This document shows, piece by piece, positions 21,742 to 64,000 of a stretch of DNA of 64,000 nucleotides. The number at the start of each line of letters is the position of its first letter. The stretch's first letter is position 1. Where the stretch lies: NCBI RefSeq assembly GCF_015354405.1, contig NZ_JADKYP010000007.1, forward strand, positions 162,389-226,388, written 5' to 3'. This DNA is from Nocardia sp. BSTN01. Its GTDB lineage: Bacteria; Actinomycetota; Actinomycetes; Mycobacteriales; Mycobacteriaceae. The position numbers were made by a program, and so were the translations under genes. Under the pieces are notes generated by a model that worked only from the letters and a program-made list of their open reading frames with translations, was not told the origin of the DNA and searched no databases.

Positions 21742-23009
21742 CTTCGCACACCGATTCGGGAACCACCGTCGAGCATCACGATGTCGTCGTGATCGGCGCC
21801 GGACAAGCCGGACTGTCGATTTCCTGGCATCTGACCGCACGCGAGGTCGACCACGTGGTGCTCGAACGCGACACCGTCGCCCACGAATGGCGTGACACCC
21901 GCTGGGACAACTTCACCCTGGTCACACCGAACTGGCAATGTGTCCTTCCCGGCTACAGCTATCAGGGCAAGGATCCCCACGGATTCATGGCCCGCGACGA
22001 GGTCTATGCCTGGGTCCGGAACTATGCCGACAGCTTCGGCGCGCCCGTTCGCGAACACGTCACCGTCACCGGGGTCACCGTCGCGCAGGACGGCGGATTC
22101 GACATCGAAACGACCTCCGGACCCTTACATGCCGATCAGGTGGTGGTCGCGGTCGGCGGCTACCACACGCCGACGGTTCCGCGCTTCGCCGAGCGGCTGC
22201 CCCGCTCGATCCTGCAGCTGCATTCGGCCGAATATCGCAGCGCCGCGGACCTGCCGGCCGGCGAAGTACTCGTTGTCGGTACCGGGCAATCCGGTGCTCA
22301 GATCGCCGAAGACCTGCATCTGGAAGGCCGGCGCGTCCACCTGGCTGTCGGCAACGCTCCGCGGGTGGCCCGCTTCTACCGCGGCCGCGACTGTGTGGCC
22401 TGGCTACAGGACATGGGTCACTACGACATCCCCATCCAAGACCAGCCCGGCGGGCTGGGCAAACGCGAGAACACCAACCATTACGTCACCGGCCGCGACG
22501 GCGGGCGCGACATCGACCTGCGCCAATTCGCGCTCGACGGCATGGCACTCTACGGCCGGATGGTCGAGGTCGCCGACGGCACAGCGCATTTCGATCCGTC
22601 ACTGGAGGAATCGCTGGACGCCGCGGACGCCGTCAGCGAAAGCATCAAGGACTCCATCGACGCCTACATCGCCCGTGAGGGCATTCAGGCGCCCGTCGAA
22701 CCGCGCTACCGGCCGGTCTGGCGGCCCGAACAGGAGATCACCGAACTCGACCTGACCGCAAGCGGTATCACGTCGGTGGTGTGGTCGGTCGGGTTCCGTA
22801 CCGACTACCGGTGGCTGCAGGTCGGCGTATTCGACGGCGAGGGCCACCCCTGCCACAATCGCGGCGTCACCACGACGCCGGGCCTGTATTTCCTCGGCTT
22901 GCCCTGGCTGCACACCTGGGGTTCGGGCCGCTTCGCCGCCATCGCCCGAGACGCCGAGCACCTCGCCGACCAGATCACCGTCAGCGCGCGCGCCACCGCC
23001 GCCGCGTGA
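21738..23009 (+). CDS. MSMEG_0569 family flavin-dependent oxidoreductase
   Basis: The 423-residue protein has an N-terminal FAD motif (VVIGAGQAGLSISWHL, about residue 18) and a second dinucleotide motif (VVGTGQSGAQIAEDL, about residue 177). This is the two-domain layout of flavin monooxygenases such as YUCCA/FMO relatives. The GTG start overlaps the preceding stop. In Nit1C clusters it is thought to oxidise the pathway intermediate that becomes the nitrile or its precursor; this is inference. Confidence 0.92.
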   Translation: MTSHTDSGTTVEHHDVVVIGAGQAGLSISWHLTAREVDHVVLERDTVAHEWRDTRWDNFTLVTPNWQCVLPGYSYQGKDPHGFMARDEVYAWVRNYADSFGAPVREHVTVTGVTVAQDGGFDIETTSGPLHADQVVVAVGGYHTPTVPRFAERLPRSILQLHSAEYRSAADLPAGEVLVVGTGQSGAQIAEDLHLEGRRVHLAVGNAPRVARFYRGRDCVAWLQDMGHYDIPIQDQPGGLGKRENTNHYVTGRDGGRDIDLRQFALDGMALYGRMVEVADGTAHFDPSLEESLDAADAVSESIKDSIDAYIAREGIQAPVEPRYRPVWRPEQEITELDLTASGITSVVWSVGFRTDYRWLQVGVFDGEGHPCHNRGVTTTPGLYFLGLPWLHTWGSGRFAAIARDAEHLADQITVSARATAAA

Positions 23010-28797: not shown

Positions 28798-30168
28798 TCA
28801 TATCGCGCGCCCGGGATTGAGAATCCCCTTCGGATCGAATACTTCTTTGATCCGCCGCATCAGCTCGCGCTCGGCCGAGCCCACCATGGATTCCAGATAC
28901 CGGCCCTTGAGATCGCCGATGCCGTGCTCACCGGTGATCGTGCCGCCCAGGGACAGACAGCGATTCATCATGTCGTCGAAGGCCCGGTACGCACGGGCGG
29001 TAGCCTCCGGATCCGCCGCGTCGAAGACCACGGTGGGGTGGAGGTTGCCGTCGGCGGCATGGCCGAATGTCCCGATCACGAGCTCGTACCGGTCGGCGAT
29101 CCACTCGATCGCATCCAGCATCTCCGGCAATCGGTGCACCGGTACCGCGAGATCGTCGAGCAACGTGCTGCCACACCGTTCGAGCGCCGGGAGCGCGACC
29201 CGTCGAGCGTGCATGAGCGCCTCGCTCTCGGCCGGGTCGGAGGTGATGTGGACCTCCCCGGCCCCCGCCGCGCGACAGGCATCGGCGCTGCGCTGCGCGT
29301 CTTCCCGTCCGTCGGTCCCGTCACATTGAATCAGGAGCAAGGCCCCGGCCGTCGCGTCGAGCCCCATCCGGGTCATCTCGTCGACAGCCACAATCGTTGT
29401 GCGGTCCATGAATTCGACCAGGCTGGGATCGGCTACCTCCCGAATCGACAGGACCGCCTCGACGGCATGCGCCACCGCGGAGAATACGGCCACAACCGTC
29501 GATGACGTGCGGGGTTTCGTGCGCAGCCGCACCGTCGCCTCGACGATGACCGCGAGCGCGCCCTCGGAGCCGACCAGCAACTGGGTGAGGTTCAGCCCCG
29601 CGACGTTCTTCAGGGTGTCGGCCCCGGTATGAATGATCCGGCCGTCGGCGAGCACGGCCTTGATCCGCGCGACGTGGTTGCCGGTCACGCCGTACTTCGC
29701 GCAGCAGGCGCCGCCGGCGTTGGTCGCCAGGTTGCCGCCGATCGTGCAGATCGCGCGGCTCCCCGGATCGGGCACATACCAAAGACCCCGCCGATCCGCG
29801 GCGGCGGCCAGATCGCCGTTCAGCACGCCGGGTTCCACGGTGGCCGTGCGCGCTCGCACATCGATATCGAGTATTCGGTCGAACCGTTCCGTGCTCAGGA
29901 TTATGCAGCCGTCGATCGCATTGCTGCCACCGGCGAGCCCCGTTCCCGCCCCCCGCGTCACCACCGGCACCGCATAGCGGTTGGCGATGGTGAGCGTCGA
30001 GACGACGTCGTCCGTTGTTCGTGCCCGAACGACGGCGATCGGGCGCCCCGCCGGTGACAGCAACGATTGGTCGCGGCTGTAACCGGCCATCACCTGGGGA
30101 TCGGTTATCACGATATCGCCCAGATTCGCTGTCAACTCCGCGACCGAACCGGTCATCGTCACCGACAT
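28798..30168 (-). CDS. FAD-linked oxidase, GlcD / D-lactate dehydrogenase family
   Basis: The 456-residue protein has an N-terminal PCMH FAD domain (RGAGTGLAGGSNAIDG; the VEPGVLNGDLAAA stretch; TIGGNLATNAGG). A C-terminal FAD-oxidase domain ends in GEHGIGDLKGRYLE and FDPKGILNPG. It oxidises a 2-hydroxy acid and passes electrons to a quinone or ETF. The start at 30168 lies 4 bp after the ABM gene stop, so they are co-transcribed. Longer open frames upstream overlap the ABM gene and are not used. Confidence 0.9.
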   Translation of the reverse strand: MSVTMTGSVAELTANLGDIVITDPQVMAGYSRDQSLLSPAGRPIAVVRARTTDDVVSTLTIANRYAVPVVTRGAGTGLAGGSNAIDGCIILSTERFDRILDIDVRARTATVEPGVLNGDLAAAADRRGLWYVPDPGSRAICTIGGNLATNAGGACCAKYGVTGNHVARIKAVLADGRIIHTGADTLKNVAGLNLTQLLVGSEGALAVIVEATVRLRTKPRTSSTVVAVFSAVAHAVEAVLSIREVADPSLVEFMDRTTIVAVDEMTRMGLDATAGALLLIQCDGTDGREDAQRSADACRAAGAGEVHITSDPAESEALMHARRVALPALERCGSTLLDDLAVPVHRLPEMLDAIEWIADRYELVIGTFGHAADGNLHPTVVFDAADPEATARAYRAFDDMMNRCLSLGGTITGEHGIGDLKGRYLESMVGSAERELMRRIKEVFDPKGILNPGRAI

Positions 30169-30172
30169 TCGG

Positions 30173-30517
30173 CTACACCGAGTTCGCCGGCAGGTCCGAT
30201 ATCTCCAGCTCCGCCATACTCGCCCAATCGGTTTCCGGAATCCGCGTACTGAGTATCCGGGGAGTCGCACGCAGTGCCGGACGCATCGCGTCCAGTCCCC
30301 GCCGGAAGTGGTCGGCGGAGACATGTTCGGCCCCGGCCTGCTCGTCCCGGAAGCCCTCGACGAGAACGAACTCGTCGGGGTTGTCCACATTCCGGTTCCA
30401 TTCGAACCACAGATTGCCGGGTTCGGCCCGAGTTTTCGCGGTGTATTCCTGGGTGATCTGCAGCCAGCTATCGACATATTGCGGGAGAACATTGAACTTG
30501 ACCACGATGAAAATCAC
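30173..30517 (-). CDS. Antibiotic biosynthesis monooxygenase (ABM) domain protein
   Basis: The 114-residue dimeric ferredoxin-like protein starts VIFIVVKFNVLPQYVDSWLQ and has the ABM signature EPGNLWFEWNRN and the EGFRDEQAGAEHVSADHF stretch. These proteins are quinol oxidases (YgiN-like) or haem-/hydroxyl-transforming enzymes. GTG 30517 follows AGGAG at good spacing; a longer in-frame ATG at 30547 has no such site. It is the first gene of a unit with the FAD oxidase. Confidence 0.85.
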   Translation of the reverse strand: MIFIVVKFNVLPQYVDSWLQITQEYTAKTRAEPGNLWFEWNRNVDNPDEFVLVEGFRDEQAGAEHVSADHFRRGLDAMRPALRATPRILSTRIPETDWASMAELEISDLPANSV

Positions 30518-30585
30518 GAAATGCTCCTGATCGACACAGCCGTACATGACACGGCGAAATTCATATCCCCCGCACGCCCGGATTT

Positions 30586-30618
30586 CGGCCGCCTCGTCCG
30601 ATCTGGACGAGGCGGCCG
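30586..30618 (-). terminator. Hairpin terminator after groEL
   Basis: A perfect 14-bp stem (30586-30599 with 30605-30618) and a 5-nt loop lie 29 bp beyond the GroEL stop. The U-run is short, as is usual for high-GC actinobacterial terminators. It ends the eight-gene prm operon. Confidence 0.7.
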
Positions 30619-30646
30619 GTCCCCCACCGCCCGAACGCCGAGGTTC

Positions 30647-32311
<1,665 letters not shown>

Positions 32312-59204: not shown

Positions 59205-59246
59205 TCGGGCTGACAGGATTTGAACCTGCGACCACTTGACCCCCAG
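59205..59246 (-). tRNA. 3' fragment of tRNA-Pro(GGG): attachment-site scar
   Basis: The minus strand reads CTGGGGG (anticodon loop with GGG), TCAAG (3' anticodon stem), a full T-arm around GGTTCAAATCC, and CAGCCCGA (acceptor 3' strand and discriminator). Upstream of the anticodon loop the match stops, so D-arm and 5' acceptor are missing. Identity starting at the anticodon loop of tRNA-Pro is what pSAM2-type integrative elements leave as attR or attL. It is not a working tRNA. Confidence 0.78.
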
Positions 59247-59724: not shown

Positions 59725-61701
59725 ATGGCTTCCGTGACTTCGCCATATGCCATGACGCTGACCCTCAACGTGCTGAATCACCTCGGTATCAACCTGTACA
59801 GCAATGTTCCAGCGGTCATATCCGAGGTCGTCGCGAACGCCTACGACGCCGACGCCGAGACAGTGAACATCCAGATTGATTCAGGCGCAGGGACAATCAC
59901 GATCTCCGACGATGGTTGTGGGATGACCGCGAGCGAGGTCAACGAGCGGTACCTCTGTGTTGGCTACCAGCGCAGAGACAAGCAGCAGGCGTTGACGCCA
60001 CGATTCCAGCGGCCCGTGATGGGCCGAAAGGGCATCGGGAAGCTCTCCCTCTTCTCTATTGCGCGAGTGATCGAAGTCTTCACGACGAAGAACGGGGAAC
60101 GATGCGCTTTTCGAATGCGGGTCGCCGATATTCAGGCACAAATCGACGATCTAGACTCCGGCAAGTATTATCCGGAACCCATCCCCGCTGAGTATCCAGA
60201 CGATTTGACTCAAGGTACGAGAATTATACTCAGGGATCTGAAAAAGGATCTCAGGAATGTCGCTGCAGGACTACGGAAGCGTACAGCTAGGCGATTTTCT
60301 ATAATCGGGTCTGAATATAACTTCCAAGTATTTATTGGCGGGCGCGAAGTTACTGCGACAGATCGGGACTATTTTCATAAGGCGCAGTTTCTTTGGATCT
60401 ATGATCAAGACCCGGAAGCATCCTTCGTTACGGATCGCTGCACAAATGCAGAAGAGCAAACTATAAGGAACCCGGTAAACCTTCCTGAGGGTCAGATAAG
60501 AGGATGGATTGCGACGGCATTCAATCCGAAGGACCTCAAAGATGAGGGTGAGCAAATTAGCCGGGTTACCCTCATGGTCAGAGGTAAGCTTGCGCACGAA
60601 AATCTGCTGGAGGAAGTGAAAGAGTCCAGCATATTCGAGTCGTATCTGTTCGGTGAAATCCATGCAGACTTTCTCGACCACGATGATGCGCAGGACATTG
60701 CAACAAGTAGCCGTCAAAGAATCGTCGAAGATGACCCACGCTATCTAGCGCTAGTGGAATGGTTCTCCGCTCAGGTCAGGTCCATCGGGTCGAGGTGGAC
60801 CGAGTTGCGAAATAAGAAAGGTACGGCTACTGCCCTTCTAAACCCGCACGTAAAGGCGTGGTTTGGCACGTTAGAAGGTGACACAAAGAAGAGGGCGGAG
60901 CGCCTCTTCGGCAAGATCAACCAACTAACGCTCGATAGCCCAAAAGAACGTGCCGAGTTGCTCGCACACTCAATTCTAGCCTTTGAGGTTTTGCGTTATC
61001 GGGATAACCTAGACGCGATCGAAGAGCTTGACGTCGAGGATCTTCCTGCGCTGAAAGTCTTATTCAGCAACATTGAAGACCTTGAGGCGGTCATGTACCA
61101 CCGGATTGCAGATCAACGCCTCAAAGTAATTGAGAAGTTGCAGCAGCATATCGACGATAATGTTCTTGAAAAGGTTCTGCAAGCGCATCTTTTTGATAAC
61201 TTATGGCTGCTCGACCCTTCGTGGGAGAGGGCAACTGATCGAACAATGGAGGAAGGGATTGGGAGAGCGTTCGCTAACATTACCGAAAATCTTCCAAAGG
61301 AAGTGCGTGACTCGCGCATGGACCTTCGCTACAAGAAGATTTCTGGTGCGCATGTAATTGTTGAGTTGAAACGATACTCGGTGGTTACCAAATCAATCGA
61401 CCTGTACACCCAAGTAGACAAGTATCGGAATGCGCTCTTGTTGCATTTGAGGCAAGCTGGTAGAGGCGACGAGCGAGTGGAATGCGTCTGCGTTATCGGC
61501 AAGGATCCATCTGACTGGTCGGACGAAGACGGTAGGGGAAAATCGGAAAAGTTGCTGAAGACTATAGACACTCGAATTGTAAAATACGAGGAATTGCTGG
61601 CGAATGCTCGCTACTCATACAAGGAGTATCTCGAACAAGACGAGAAGACAACGTACTTGAGAAAACTGCTGACATCTTTGGCTGACGATGGCGGATTCTA
61701 G
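59725..61701 (+). CDS. GHKL ATPase-nuclease protein, BbrUII/HgiDII restriction family-like
   Basis: The 658-residue protein has a MORC/Hsp90-like ATPase domain: EVVANAYDADA (N-box, about residues 34-44), SDDGCGM (G1, 61-67) and GRKGIGKLSLFSIA (G2, 100-113). A long helical middle follows. A C-terminal PD-(D/E)XK-like core reads AHVIVELKRY (ELK at 547-549), followed by a QVDKYRNALLL helix. This layout is that of BbrUII/HgiDII-type restriction proteins and related phage-defence ATPases. Codon use is much more A/T-rich than the genes to the left. No methyltransferase is seen in the window. ATG 59725 has no strong ribosome site; ATG 59752 is possible. Confidence 0.8.
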   Translation: MASVTSPYAMTLTLNVLNHLGINLYSNVPAVISEVVANAYDADAETVNIQIDSGAGTITISDDGCGMTASEVNERYLCVGYQRRDKQQALTPRFQRPVMGRKGIGKLSLFSIARVIEVFTTKNGERCAFRMRVADIQAQIDDLDSGKYYPEPIPAEYPDDLTQGTRIILRDLKKDLRNVAAGLRKRTARRFSIIGSEYNFQVFIGGREVTATDRDYFHKAQFLWIYDQDPEASFVTDRCTNAEEQTIRNPVNLPEGQIRGWIATAFNPKDLKDEGEQISRVTLMVRGKLAHENLLEEVKESSIFESYLFGEIHADFLDHDDAQDIATSSRQRIVEDDPRYLALVEWFSAQVRSIGSRWTELRNKKGTATALLNPHVKAWFGTLEGDTKKRAERLFGKINQLTLDSPKERAELLAHSILAFEVLRYRDNLDAIEELDVEDLPALKVLFSNIEDLEAVMYHRIADQRLKVIEKLQQHIDDNVLEKVLQAHLFDNLWLLDPSWERATDRTMEEGIGRAFANITENLPKEVRDSRMDLRYKKISGAHVIVELKRYSVVTKSIDLYTQVDKYRNALLLHLRQAGRGDERVECVCVIGKDPSDWSDEDGRGKSEKLLKTIDTRIVKYEELLANARYSYKEYLEQDEKTTYLRKLLTSLADDGGF

Positions 61702-61775
61702 CAGCGCTTCGGAACTAAAGTAGGTTGGGGGCTCGACCGAGTATGCGCCCCCGCTGCAACGTCGATGGGTGGATA

Positions 61776-63530
61776 ATGACGCCAGAGGCAGAATTGCTCG
61801 ATATCATTGCCGGCTTCCGGCGGCAGGTTGGCGAGCTCTCGGTCTGGTCAGCAGGCCCGGAGCGTCTTCACGCCTTGCTCATAACAGCGATCACGCCCCG
61901 CGCTGAGGCTGCGCGGCGGGGAACGGAGATTAGCGGGTTTCCTTGGGAATCGTTCGTCGAGTTGCTCGTCAAATGGCATTTTGACAATCCGATTGGCAGC
62001 TCGGCATGCCGTGAAGGCGATGTGATGGAAGCGATGCAACTGGCGATCAAGTTCATGCGAATAGATCCCATCGGGACCGCTTTACGTGTTGGAGGATATA
62101 AAGTTCGCCGAAATGGGGGCGCTTTTCGGATAAGTTATAGATGGGACATGTCGGCGGAGGCTGCAGACCTGTACCTTGAGAGAAGCGTACGTCCACGTAA
62201 AAGACGAGACCCTTCGACTGCAGAGGTCGACTGGGCATCATCGCAGCTTCGCGGAAGGCTCAATCTATTTACGCCTCCGATTGAATTGTTACGTACCGCA
62301 TCATCTCGCGCCTTCGAAACTGTAATTGAACTAAGGAGTGAACGACCCGAGGGGTATCTCCCGGATGAGTTTGATCTCGGTGACGGTTTGAAGGTTGGCC
62401 AGATGATTGCGGTTATTGCCGGATTGATGGGAATTGCCGAGTTGGGCGAGCTTGCACACCAGTCGGTTGATCATCCTGGCATCTCATTGGTCCACGCTCC
62501 AAGAAATCTCTTGGTTGACTGGCTTGTTCAGCTGCGCGAAGGCCTATCTAGCGACACAGTGGAGGCTGCCATCGACCGGCTAATGGTAGGTCCGCGGCGA
62601 TCGCTAAGGACCTCGTTGCTTATCCCTGACGGAGATTCAATCACTTTTCTTCCCTTGTTTATGTTTCCACGCACCCTAGACGCTGTCCTGCTACGAACGG
62701 CAGCTAGCGACGATTCCCGATTCGGCCCAATCGGAAAACGGCAAGGTGGACGATCCGGAGCGTTGTCCAGTTGGTTAAAACAGATCCCCGGAGTAAAGGT
62801 CCTCGAGCGCCTAAAAATCAAGGATGAAAACCGGGTCATACTAGGCGATCTAGATGTTATCGCTTTAGATCCAATTGCACAGAAAGGGATCATATTTGAG
62901 GTGAAGTGGCCGATCGAAGCCGTAACCCTTTCCGATGCGCTGGGTATCGAACGGTGGATCAGCAAAGGGGCAGAGCAATTAGATGCGATTCGAAAAGAAT
63001 TGCGAGAGAGGCCGGAACTGGTTAAGTTTCCTCCTGGATGGCCGAACTTTCGGGATATAGAGTGGAGCTGGGGAGTCTGCACTCCGGATCAACTTACCCC
63101 AAAGCCTTTGACTGTACCGGACATGAAGGCTACTTCATTTCGGTACTTGACCAGCCTTGACGGTGCGTCAAAATTGGAAGATGTTATCAACATCGTCCAA
63201 AATCCGGATTTTCCTAAAAAGAATCTCCACTACGAGATTCGCCCTGCCCGAATGGAATTCGGACGCCATATCGTGAAGATTGATTCCCTTGTCCTTGCAG
63301 ATACTAGTTGGGTACCGACCTTCGGTCGTGTCGGTGACTGGGATTCCATCGAAGGTCGTCGCTGCAGCGCGAGCGGGAGGCGTTGTGTTGCTCGCGGTTC
63401 GTCCGATGACAGTGTTGCCCCGGACGCAGGTCGACGAAAGGATTGGTTGACTACCTTCCTGTCGGGAGCGCGTCGTATCTTCAAAGGGCGCGGAGCAGAC
63501 GAGGCCTGCCCGGCGCGTCAGGAGGTTCTA
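61776..63530 (+). CDS. Unknown PD-(D/E)XK-like nuclease partner of the GHKL protein
   Basis: From ATG 61776 the frame is open to the window end without any stop. The first part (about 510 residues) is not a family I can name. It has a PD-(D/E)XK-like core: GDLDVIALD (D358, D360) and IFEVKWP (E375-x-K377). It is A/T-rich like its neighbour and starts 75 bp after it, so the two form one unit. After about codon 513 the composition changes abruptly to G/C-rich, and a separate gene with its own AGGAGG starts in the same frame at 63531. Either this is a fused protein or its true stop was lost at the junction near 63312. Confidence 0.6.
63313..63450 (+). pseudogene. 3' fragment of an unidentified G/C-rich gene inside the junction
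   Basis: In the +1 frame relative to the nuclease-like gene, 63313-63450 encodes SKVVAAARAGGVVLLAVRP and PRTQVDERIG with a normal TGA stop. The codon use is typical of the host chromosome, unlike the A/T-rich gene upstream. It looks like the last 45 codons of another gene joined by recombination. The family is unknown. Confidence 0.4.
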
Positions 63531-64000
63531 ATGCGCGCGTGGGCGTTGCTGACAAAGGTCGACGATCGGAGTTGGGAAAGCAACAATGGATACCCGGACG
63601 TACTGGGGGCAACCTACATCTATGACAGTGTGGTCAGCAACCATCGTCGGGTTCAGGTCGGCGACATGGTGGTGCTACGAAACTCAACCTCGGTTCTTGG
63701 GGTGTCGCGGATCGACCGAATCGACTCCGAGACAGCCACGAAGGACCGCTATGTCTGCCCGAAATGCCGTCGAGGAGGGCAAGTTCAGCGGACGACAAAT
63801 AGGAAGGGGTTGGCGCGGTATCTGTGCCGACACAGCAACTGTCGCAACGAGTTTGATGTTGCGCTGCACTTTGAACAACCAGTAACGCTATACACCGCCA
63901 GCTACGGTGCTCAGTGGCAATCGTTGGATGGGGCTCTCGCGTTCAGCATGGTCCAGCCATTGCTGGACAGGGCGCAGCAGAGCGCGATCCGCCGGTGTGA
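63531..64000 (+). CDS. N-terminal part of a protein resembling HNH restriction endonucleases (runs off window)
   Basis: AGGAGG lies 6 bp before ATG 63531, and the product starts MRAWALLTKVDDRSWESNNG, followed by a YDSVVSNHRRVQVGDMVVLR stretch and a zinc ribbon (CPKC...CRHSNC). This opening is the one I associate with actinobacterial HNH endonucleases that have an EVE/PUA-like N-terminal domain. The HNH domain itself would be beyond the window, so the nuclease call is provisional. Confidence 0.55.
   Translation, partial: MRAWALLTKVDDRSWESNNGYPDVLGATYIYDSVVSNHRRVQVGDMVVLRNSTSVLGVSRIDRIDSETATKDRYVCPKCRRGGQVQRTTNRKGLARYLCRHSNCRNEFDVALHFEQPVTLYTASYGAQWQSLDGALAFSMVQPLLDRAQQSAIRRC

Follow-up and report, generated by a model that had tools for sequence, protein, structure and literature searches.

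GHKL-S5 ATPases that carry a C-terminal nuclease of the restriction-endonuclease (RE) fold occur in restriction systems and are grouped as paraMORC3 in part of the account by Iyer, Abhiman and Aravind 2008 (PMC2292703). For a named family of such enzymes, M.HgiDII is given in a section of PMC5867850 as the 5-methylcytosine (m5C) methyltransferase for GTCGAC. Two further described proteins are of relevance here: the phage-defense protein Upx (structure 9wuf), which a passage of PMC10855318 credits to Gao et al. 2020 (its ref. 19), and VcaM4I (6yex), an EVE-HNH modification-dependent endonuclease according to part of PMC7897488. We compared these systems with a locus at the end of a 64,000-nucleotide stretch of Nocardia sp. 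BSTN01 (contig NZ_JADKYP010000007.1, here C174, positions 162,389 to 226,388; hereafter the window), where three consecutive genes, A, B, and C, all lie on the plus strand. These are best read as neighboring defense modules at the end of a genomic island: a restriction ATPase (A), a nuclease gene (B), and a gene of the HNH type (C). Gene B would represent a rare, undescribed family of free-standing PD-(D/E)XK nucleases from actinomycetes whose predicted fold corresponds to one half of Upx.

Results and Discussion

Predicted Fold of Gene B

Gene B begins 74 base pairs (bp) after the end of gene A. In its product, a first-pass annotation made by a model from the DNA letters had noticed a GDLD...EVK core and had supposed an undescribed PD-(D/E)XK protein. 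Both suppositions stand: The core is intact, with GDLDV at residues 357–361 and ExK at residues 375–377, and the predicted fold is of the PD-(D/E)XK type, without a match to any named family. In the predicted domain, the alpha-beta-beta-beta-alpha-beta core is present and its D, ExK, and Q residues are in register, which places gene B in the PD-(D/E)XK superfamily. According to the model, gene B shares its fold with the Upx C-terminal half (residues about 752–1271). The N-terminal ~750 residues of Upx are absent from the chain, as the relatives of gene B comprise ~520 residues and at most 17 in-frame codons precede the ATG in the window, and no sequence-level match between the two proteins was found. 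At E values up to 10, 15 gene B members matched none of the PADLOC families, in a library whose inclusion of an Upx model is unconfirmed. Gene B appears as a helical N-terminal module joined to a PD-(D/E)XK domain; it would act as an independent effector that cuts invading DNA, either alone or once activated by a neighboring system such as DISARM/MZA.

Other assignments were considered. MzaA was rejected, as it is a sigma factor according to part of PMC9523054, and so was DrmC, which is annotated as phospholipase-D-like in a Deinococcus locus described below (L104). MZA-like operons mentioned in a portion of Iyer 2008 (PMC2292703) include an RE-fold gene, to which gene B could still correspond; we consider this less likely because the operons found here already have MzaD. 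Gene B links three defense themes, Upx, DISARM, and MZA, and, being short, may allow the C-terminal half of Upx to be tested in compact form.

Table 1. Positions of the features in the window.
Feature	Position	Strand	Remarks
Gene A, restriction ATPase of the BbrUII/HgiDII family (GHKL, with PD-(D/E)XK at the C terminus)	59725..61701	+	NF050001, HATPase_c_3, PADLOC REase_II
Gene A nuclease core D533...E547-x-K549 (E547-L-K549)	61321..61371	+	kept in 7/7 aligned A-type proteins
Gene B, predicted free-standing nuclease with the predicted fold of the Upx C-terminal half	61776..63344	+	relatives end at ~residue 514–520; own frame open to 63998
Gene B PD-(D/E)XK domain, residues 298–460, with D358, D360, E375, K377, Q401	62667..63155	+	
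Gene C, start (156 residues) of a probable HNH_2-type endonuclease	63531..63998	+	HNH_2 in the one relative scanned; cut by contig end
3' fragment of tRNA-Pro(GGG), attR-like island end	59206..59246	-	41 bp identical to intact tRNA-Pro(GGG) on contig C125

Genomic Contexts of Gene B

Relatives of gene B were found exclusively in actinomycetes, namely in 21 other genomes: 17 from the main search plus G295, G488, G736, and G509, with G527 (= L084), G747 (= L087), and G901 (= L071) left out as duplicate records. The largest group consists of arrays of Streptomyces and relatives that combine DISARM with MZA and contain gene B between DrmB and MzaB: In 10 of the 21 genomes (loci L073–L076, L078, L081, L083, L085, L086, and L099; for example L076, 4255–21461) the order is DrmA-DrmB-B-MzaB-MzaC-MzaD-MzaE, where the gene names were taken from PADLOC for L076 and transferred to the other arrays by similarity to it. 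Within these ten stretches, Vsr is present in nine and a DrmMII-like methyltransferase in eight. An eleventh genome (G509) has a decayed gene B directly 5' of MzaB, near a contig end. These 11 loci with MzaB as neighbor reside in Streptomyces, one Kitasatospora, and two further genomes, and since gene B is 67–98% identical among the seven full-length copies compared, they represent one cluster type. Gene B is also a marker of composite DISARM-MZA arrays in which an additional nuclease, left unlabeled by the PADLOC models, separates DrmB from MzaB. Among the titles and abstract openings searched, mostly from journals outside subscription, none describes a DISARM-MZA composite with a B-type nuclease.

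The remaining contexts are diverse. Gene B adjoins PglW in L087 and an SduA_C (Shedu) protein in L080, and lies near two m5C-type open reading frames (ORFs) and an FtsK-like protein in L098. Its neighbor in L084 is an MTES_1575 helicase-nuclease; the 10 kb around this copy also contain an m5C-type ORF, an Mrr-helicase, a GHKL protein, and a stretch distantly similar to MzaB. No defense neighbor was recognized in L071, L072, L077, L079, L082, and L009, where most ORFs were judged by eye. In contrast to the DISARM-MZA arrays, the window contains no match to their Drm or Mza genes, including DrmA and DrmB of L076, and its gene A belongs to another GHKL family; the window can thus not be counted as DISARM, with the remaining island unassembled.

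Gene A and the Methyltransferase Question

The intact ORF of gene A encodes 658 residues and matches NF050001 with an E value of 1.3e-237 and 790.6 bits (curated cut-off 550), residues 8–652 covering positions 1–659 of the 659-position model; in addition, it matches HATPase_c_3 and, in PADLOC, REase_II. This bears out the initial assignment as a GHKL ATPase of the BbrUII/HgiDII type with an ELK nuclease core. The GHKL ATP-binding motifs and the C-terminal core are intact and conserved in all seven aligned A-type proteins, gene A included. Like the BbrUII/HgiDII family, gene A covers the whole model and possesses the C-terminal D-ExK core; unlike typical A-type loci, it has no adjoining m5C methyltransferase. 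Judged from its sequence, gene A is a known BbrUII/HgiDII-family GHKL ATPase-nuclease that is ordinary for the family apart from this absence, and its placement in paraMORC3 follows the description in part of PMC2292703 rather than an alignment. NF050001 matches over the cut-off occur in 4 of 397 genomes of the order, the present one included. We take gene A to combine a GHKL-S5 ATPase as its engine with a PD-(D/E)XK domain; it would cut unmethylated sites and normally require an m5C methyltransferase. By analogy with HgiDII these sites may be GTCGAC, which occurs 74 times in the window (a raw count without an expected number).

In agreement with the first-pass annotation, no methyltransferase is found in the ~475 bp that separate gene A from the tRNA fragment. 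Its step from the missing methyltransferase to a possible recognition of modified DNA does not follow: An m5C methyltransferase is the neighboring gene in 8 of 10 A-type loci (L060, L061, L062, L102–L105, and L123–L125), and the island is cut by the contig end. The NF050001 cut-off was applied to L060, L061, and L062 only, the other A-type loci being tblastn matches with 34–43% identity. An m5C-like ORF of L061, 24% identical to P0005 and 1.1 kb off, was left out of the adjacent count, and in L103 no m5C methyltransferase is in view by tblastn.

P0005 is the methyltransferase partner of the G298 enzyme, with which the gene A enzyme shares 70% identity. In the Nocardia genome itself, P0005 finds one place (29% identity), and PF00145 finds places on contigs C13 and C166. 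In separate small BLAST runs, the other three m5C methyltransferase ORFs of this genome (C13, C166) were 26–29% identical to P0005 (E 1e-11 to 1e-14), compared to 30–32% (E 1e-31 to 1e-40) for the methyltransferases that accompany four further A-type genes (L062, L102, L104, L105). The genome's own ORFs therefore look like poorer candidates for the partner of gene A, yet they may still qualify because those four partners are themselves only 30–32% identical to P0005. The likeliest location of the methyltransferase would be the unassembled part of the island. With gene A located at an island end and no methyltransferase visible nearby, one may ask how the host copes with the enzyme.

We also considered, and rejected, the remnant of a methyltransferase within the window: The best P0005 tblastn match (22638–22952, 29% over 109 residues) has an E value of 0.007 and was not flagged by the PF00145 search. 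On C166, two m5C methyltransferase ORFs with open frames of 381 and 578 residues are neighbors (28804–30763). Among the A-type loci, the BbrUII-type ATPase of plasmid p96k of Deinococcus sp. AJ005 (L104) stands beside an m5C methyltransferase, Vsr, DISARM drmA, a DUF1998 gene, and drmC, and that of a Rubrobacter marinus plasmid (L103) adjoins a large helicase of the DEAD/DEAH type as well as a PD-(D/E)XK protein that is not related to gene B.

Relationship Between Genes A and B

The first-pass annotation had united A and B in one anti-DNA system. Its observations on strand and composition are correct: Both genes are A/T-rich compared to the chromosome, with a GC content of 51% (A) and 53% (B) versus ~65% over most of the window. 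The union itself is not supported by the distribution of the two genes, and by the co-occurrence criterion that the annotation had set, the specific pair fails in this sample. NF050001 exceeds the cut-off in none of the 21 other gene B genomes, the best value being 233.5 bits (L075 genome), and the gene B profile finds nothing in any of the seven A-type loci tested (all except L123–L125); the A–B pair has therefore been seen only once. The proposed search for GHKL genes next to gene B gave a divided answer: It was negative for BbrUII-type ATPases and positive for a GHKL ATPase of some kind, namely MzaB in 11 of 21 genomes, which belong to a single cluster type.

These data bear on two models that connect the genes functionally. 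In the first, the GHKL ATPase A acts on DNA as a sensor or by looping it and gives license to nuclease B, without methyltransferase-based control. The short gap, shared strand, and similarly low GC content would fit such a pair, as would the position of gene B directly before the GHKL ATPase MzaB in those 11 loci and the lack of a methyltransferase beside gene A, with L103 as an A-type locus of the same kind. Set against the single occurrence of the A–B adjacency, the close relationship of the MzaB cases, and the nuclease core that gene A already carries, we regard this model as quite unlikely. In the second, gene B corresponds to an effector half of Upx that can be detached and moved as a PD-(D/E)XK module, while a GHKL ATPase encoded next to it provides the sensor half in trans; this ATPase would be MzaB in the DISARM-MZA arrays and, in the present Nocardia, the BbrUII-type enzyme. 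We grant this idea a similarly small chance; if true, GHKL machines could receive nucleases that are exchangeable.

Gene C and the Open Frame Behind Gene B

The observation that gene C opens like HNH enzymes is supported by its resemblance to proteins with an HNH_2 domain. Matches to gene C occur in 18 other of the 397 genomes (19 with its own); the best seven are open frames of 316–419 residues, the rest of 170–718. PF13391 (HNH_2) was detected in the one relative scanned (L063), and the HNH part of gene C itself would lie past the contig end. A profile of gene C and seven relatives matches VcaM4I in the HNH part (E 3.7e-9), to which the match with the 6yex PDB profile is confined. In contrast to VcaM4I, the N-terminal domain of gene C is unmatched to EVE, has no Pfam match over a cut-off, and contains conserved cysteines resembling a zinc site. 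Gene C is a probable HNH restriction enzyme that is perhaps modification-dependent. A gene C relative lies ~6 kb from gene B in L078 and L081.

From 61725 to 63998 the reading frame is open without a stop, such that gene B runs through gene C to the contig end, a feature that the first-pass annotation does not mention. This could be taken to indicate one fused protein with two nucleases, which we consider very unlikely: The relatives of B terminate at about residue 514–520, ahead of gene C, those of C are separate ORFs, and gene C has its own ATG (63531) preceded by AGGAGG. Moreover, a random stretch like the B–C linker would stay open with p ~0.20, which makes the open frame weak evidence for a fusion, and the third codon positions of the linker are not GC-enriched in this frame.

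The Proposed Island End and Weighing of the Evidence

Starting at ~60 kb of the window, the GC content drops from ~65% to 51–56%. The 41-bp stretch of tRNA-Pro(GGG) upstream of gene A occurs at two places in the whole assembly (7.8 Mb), the window and contig C125, where the intact tRNA-Pro(GGG) is followed by an ORF resembling a tyrosine integrase (L005, 8945–10150, minus strand) and an excisionase-like ORF, both judged by eye. We infer an element integrated in tRNA-Pro(GGG) whose far end carries the three genes, C174 and C125 being unjoined in the assembly. Within Nocardia, gene B is present in 2 of 151 genomes, its own included; the closest relative, from Nocardia vulneris (L071, 62% identity), is separated by 2.3 kb from an intact tRNA-Pro(GGG). 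Proximity to this site is therefore common to the two Nocardia copies. The window ends exactly where C174 (226388 bases) ends, and the gene set is consequently incomplete. Altogether, we consider it likely that the window shows the att-proximal end of a horizontally acquired defense island at tRNA-Pro(GGG), with A, B, and C as three separate DNA-targeting modules.

Several points weigh against this reading. The proximity, common strand, and alike composition of A and B also fit one operon, and gene B is known from the 21 other genomes only, so that its linkage is weakly tested. An active gene A on its own should damage the DNA of its host, and the search for a cognate methyltransferase gave no clear candidate. 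Regarding gene B, the Foldseek TM-score to Upx is just 0.38, its N-terminal part alone retrieves nothing at E <= 0.001, the chain may need a partner in place of the first ~750 residues of Upx, and its nuclease activity is a prediction from the fold. Furthermore, the assemblies of 5 of the 21 other genomes show a disrupted gene B (loci L081, L085, L087, L009, and L101), by an in-frame stop (L081), an insertion (L085), frame breaks (L087 and G295), and decay (G509); the gene may therefore be dispensable or costly. Both frame breaks, in G295 and the L087/G747 record, fall at residues 161–166, which could reflect chance, decay, or a split gene; a programmed frameshift was considered and then dropped.

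Such disruptions would also suit a decayed locus, in which gene A lost its methyltransferase and is silent, the stop of gene B has disappeared, and all three genes are what is left of a defense island; the absence of both the methyltransferase next to gene A and the expected stop of gene B points the same way. As the motifs of gene A and the core of gene B are intact, and genes missing beyond the contig end at 64000 may be unassembled, we judge this explanation unlikely and retain the island end with three separate modules.

Two observations lie outside this argument. On the integrase side of tRNA-Pro (C125; L107, 82–14439), a 4785-residue ORF reads like a nonribosomal peptide synthetase. Three A-like loci were found in viral contigs; a near full-length gene A relative with 37% identity (L120, 1771–3723) is on a contig classed as viral.

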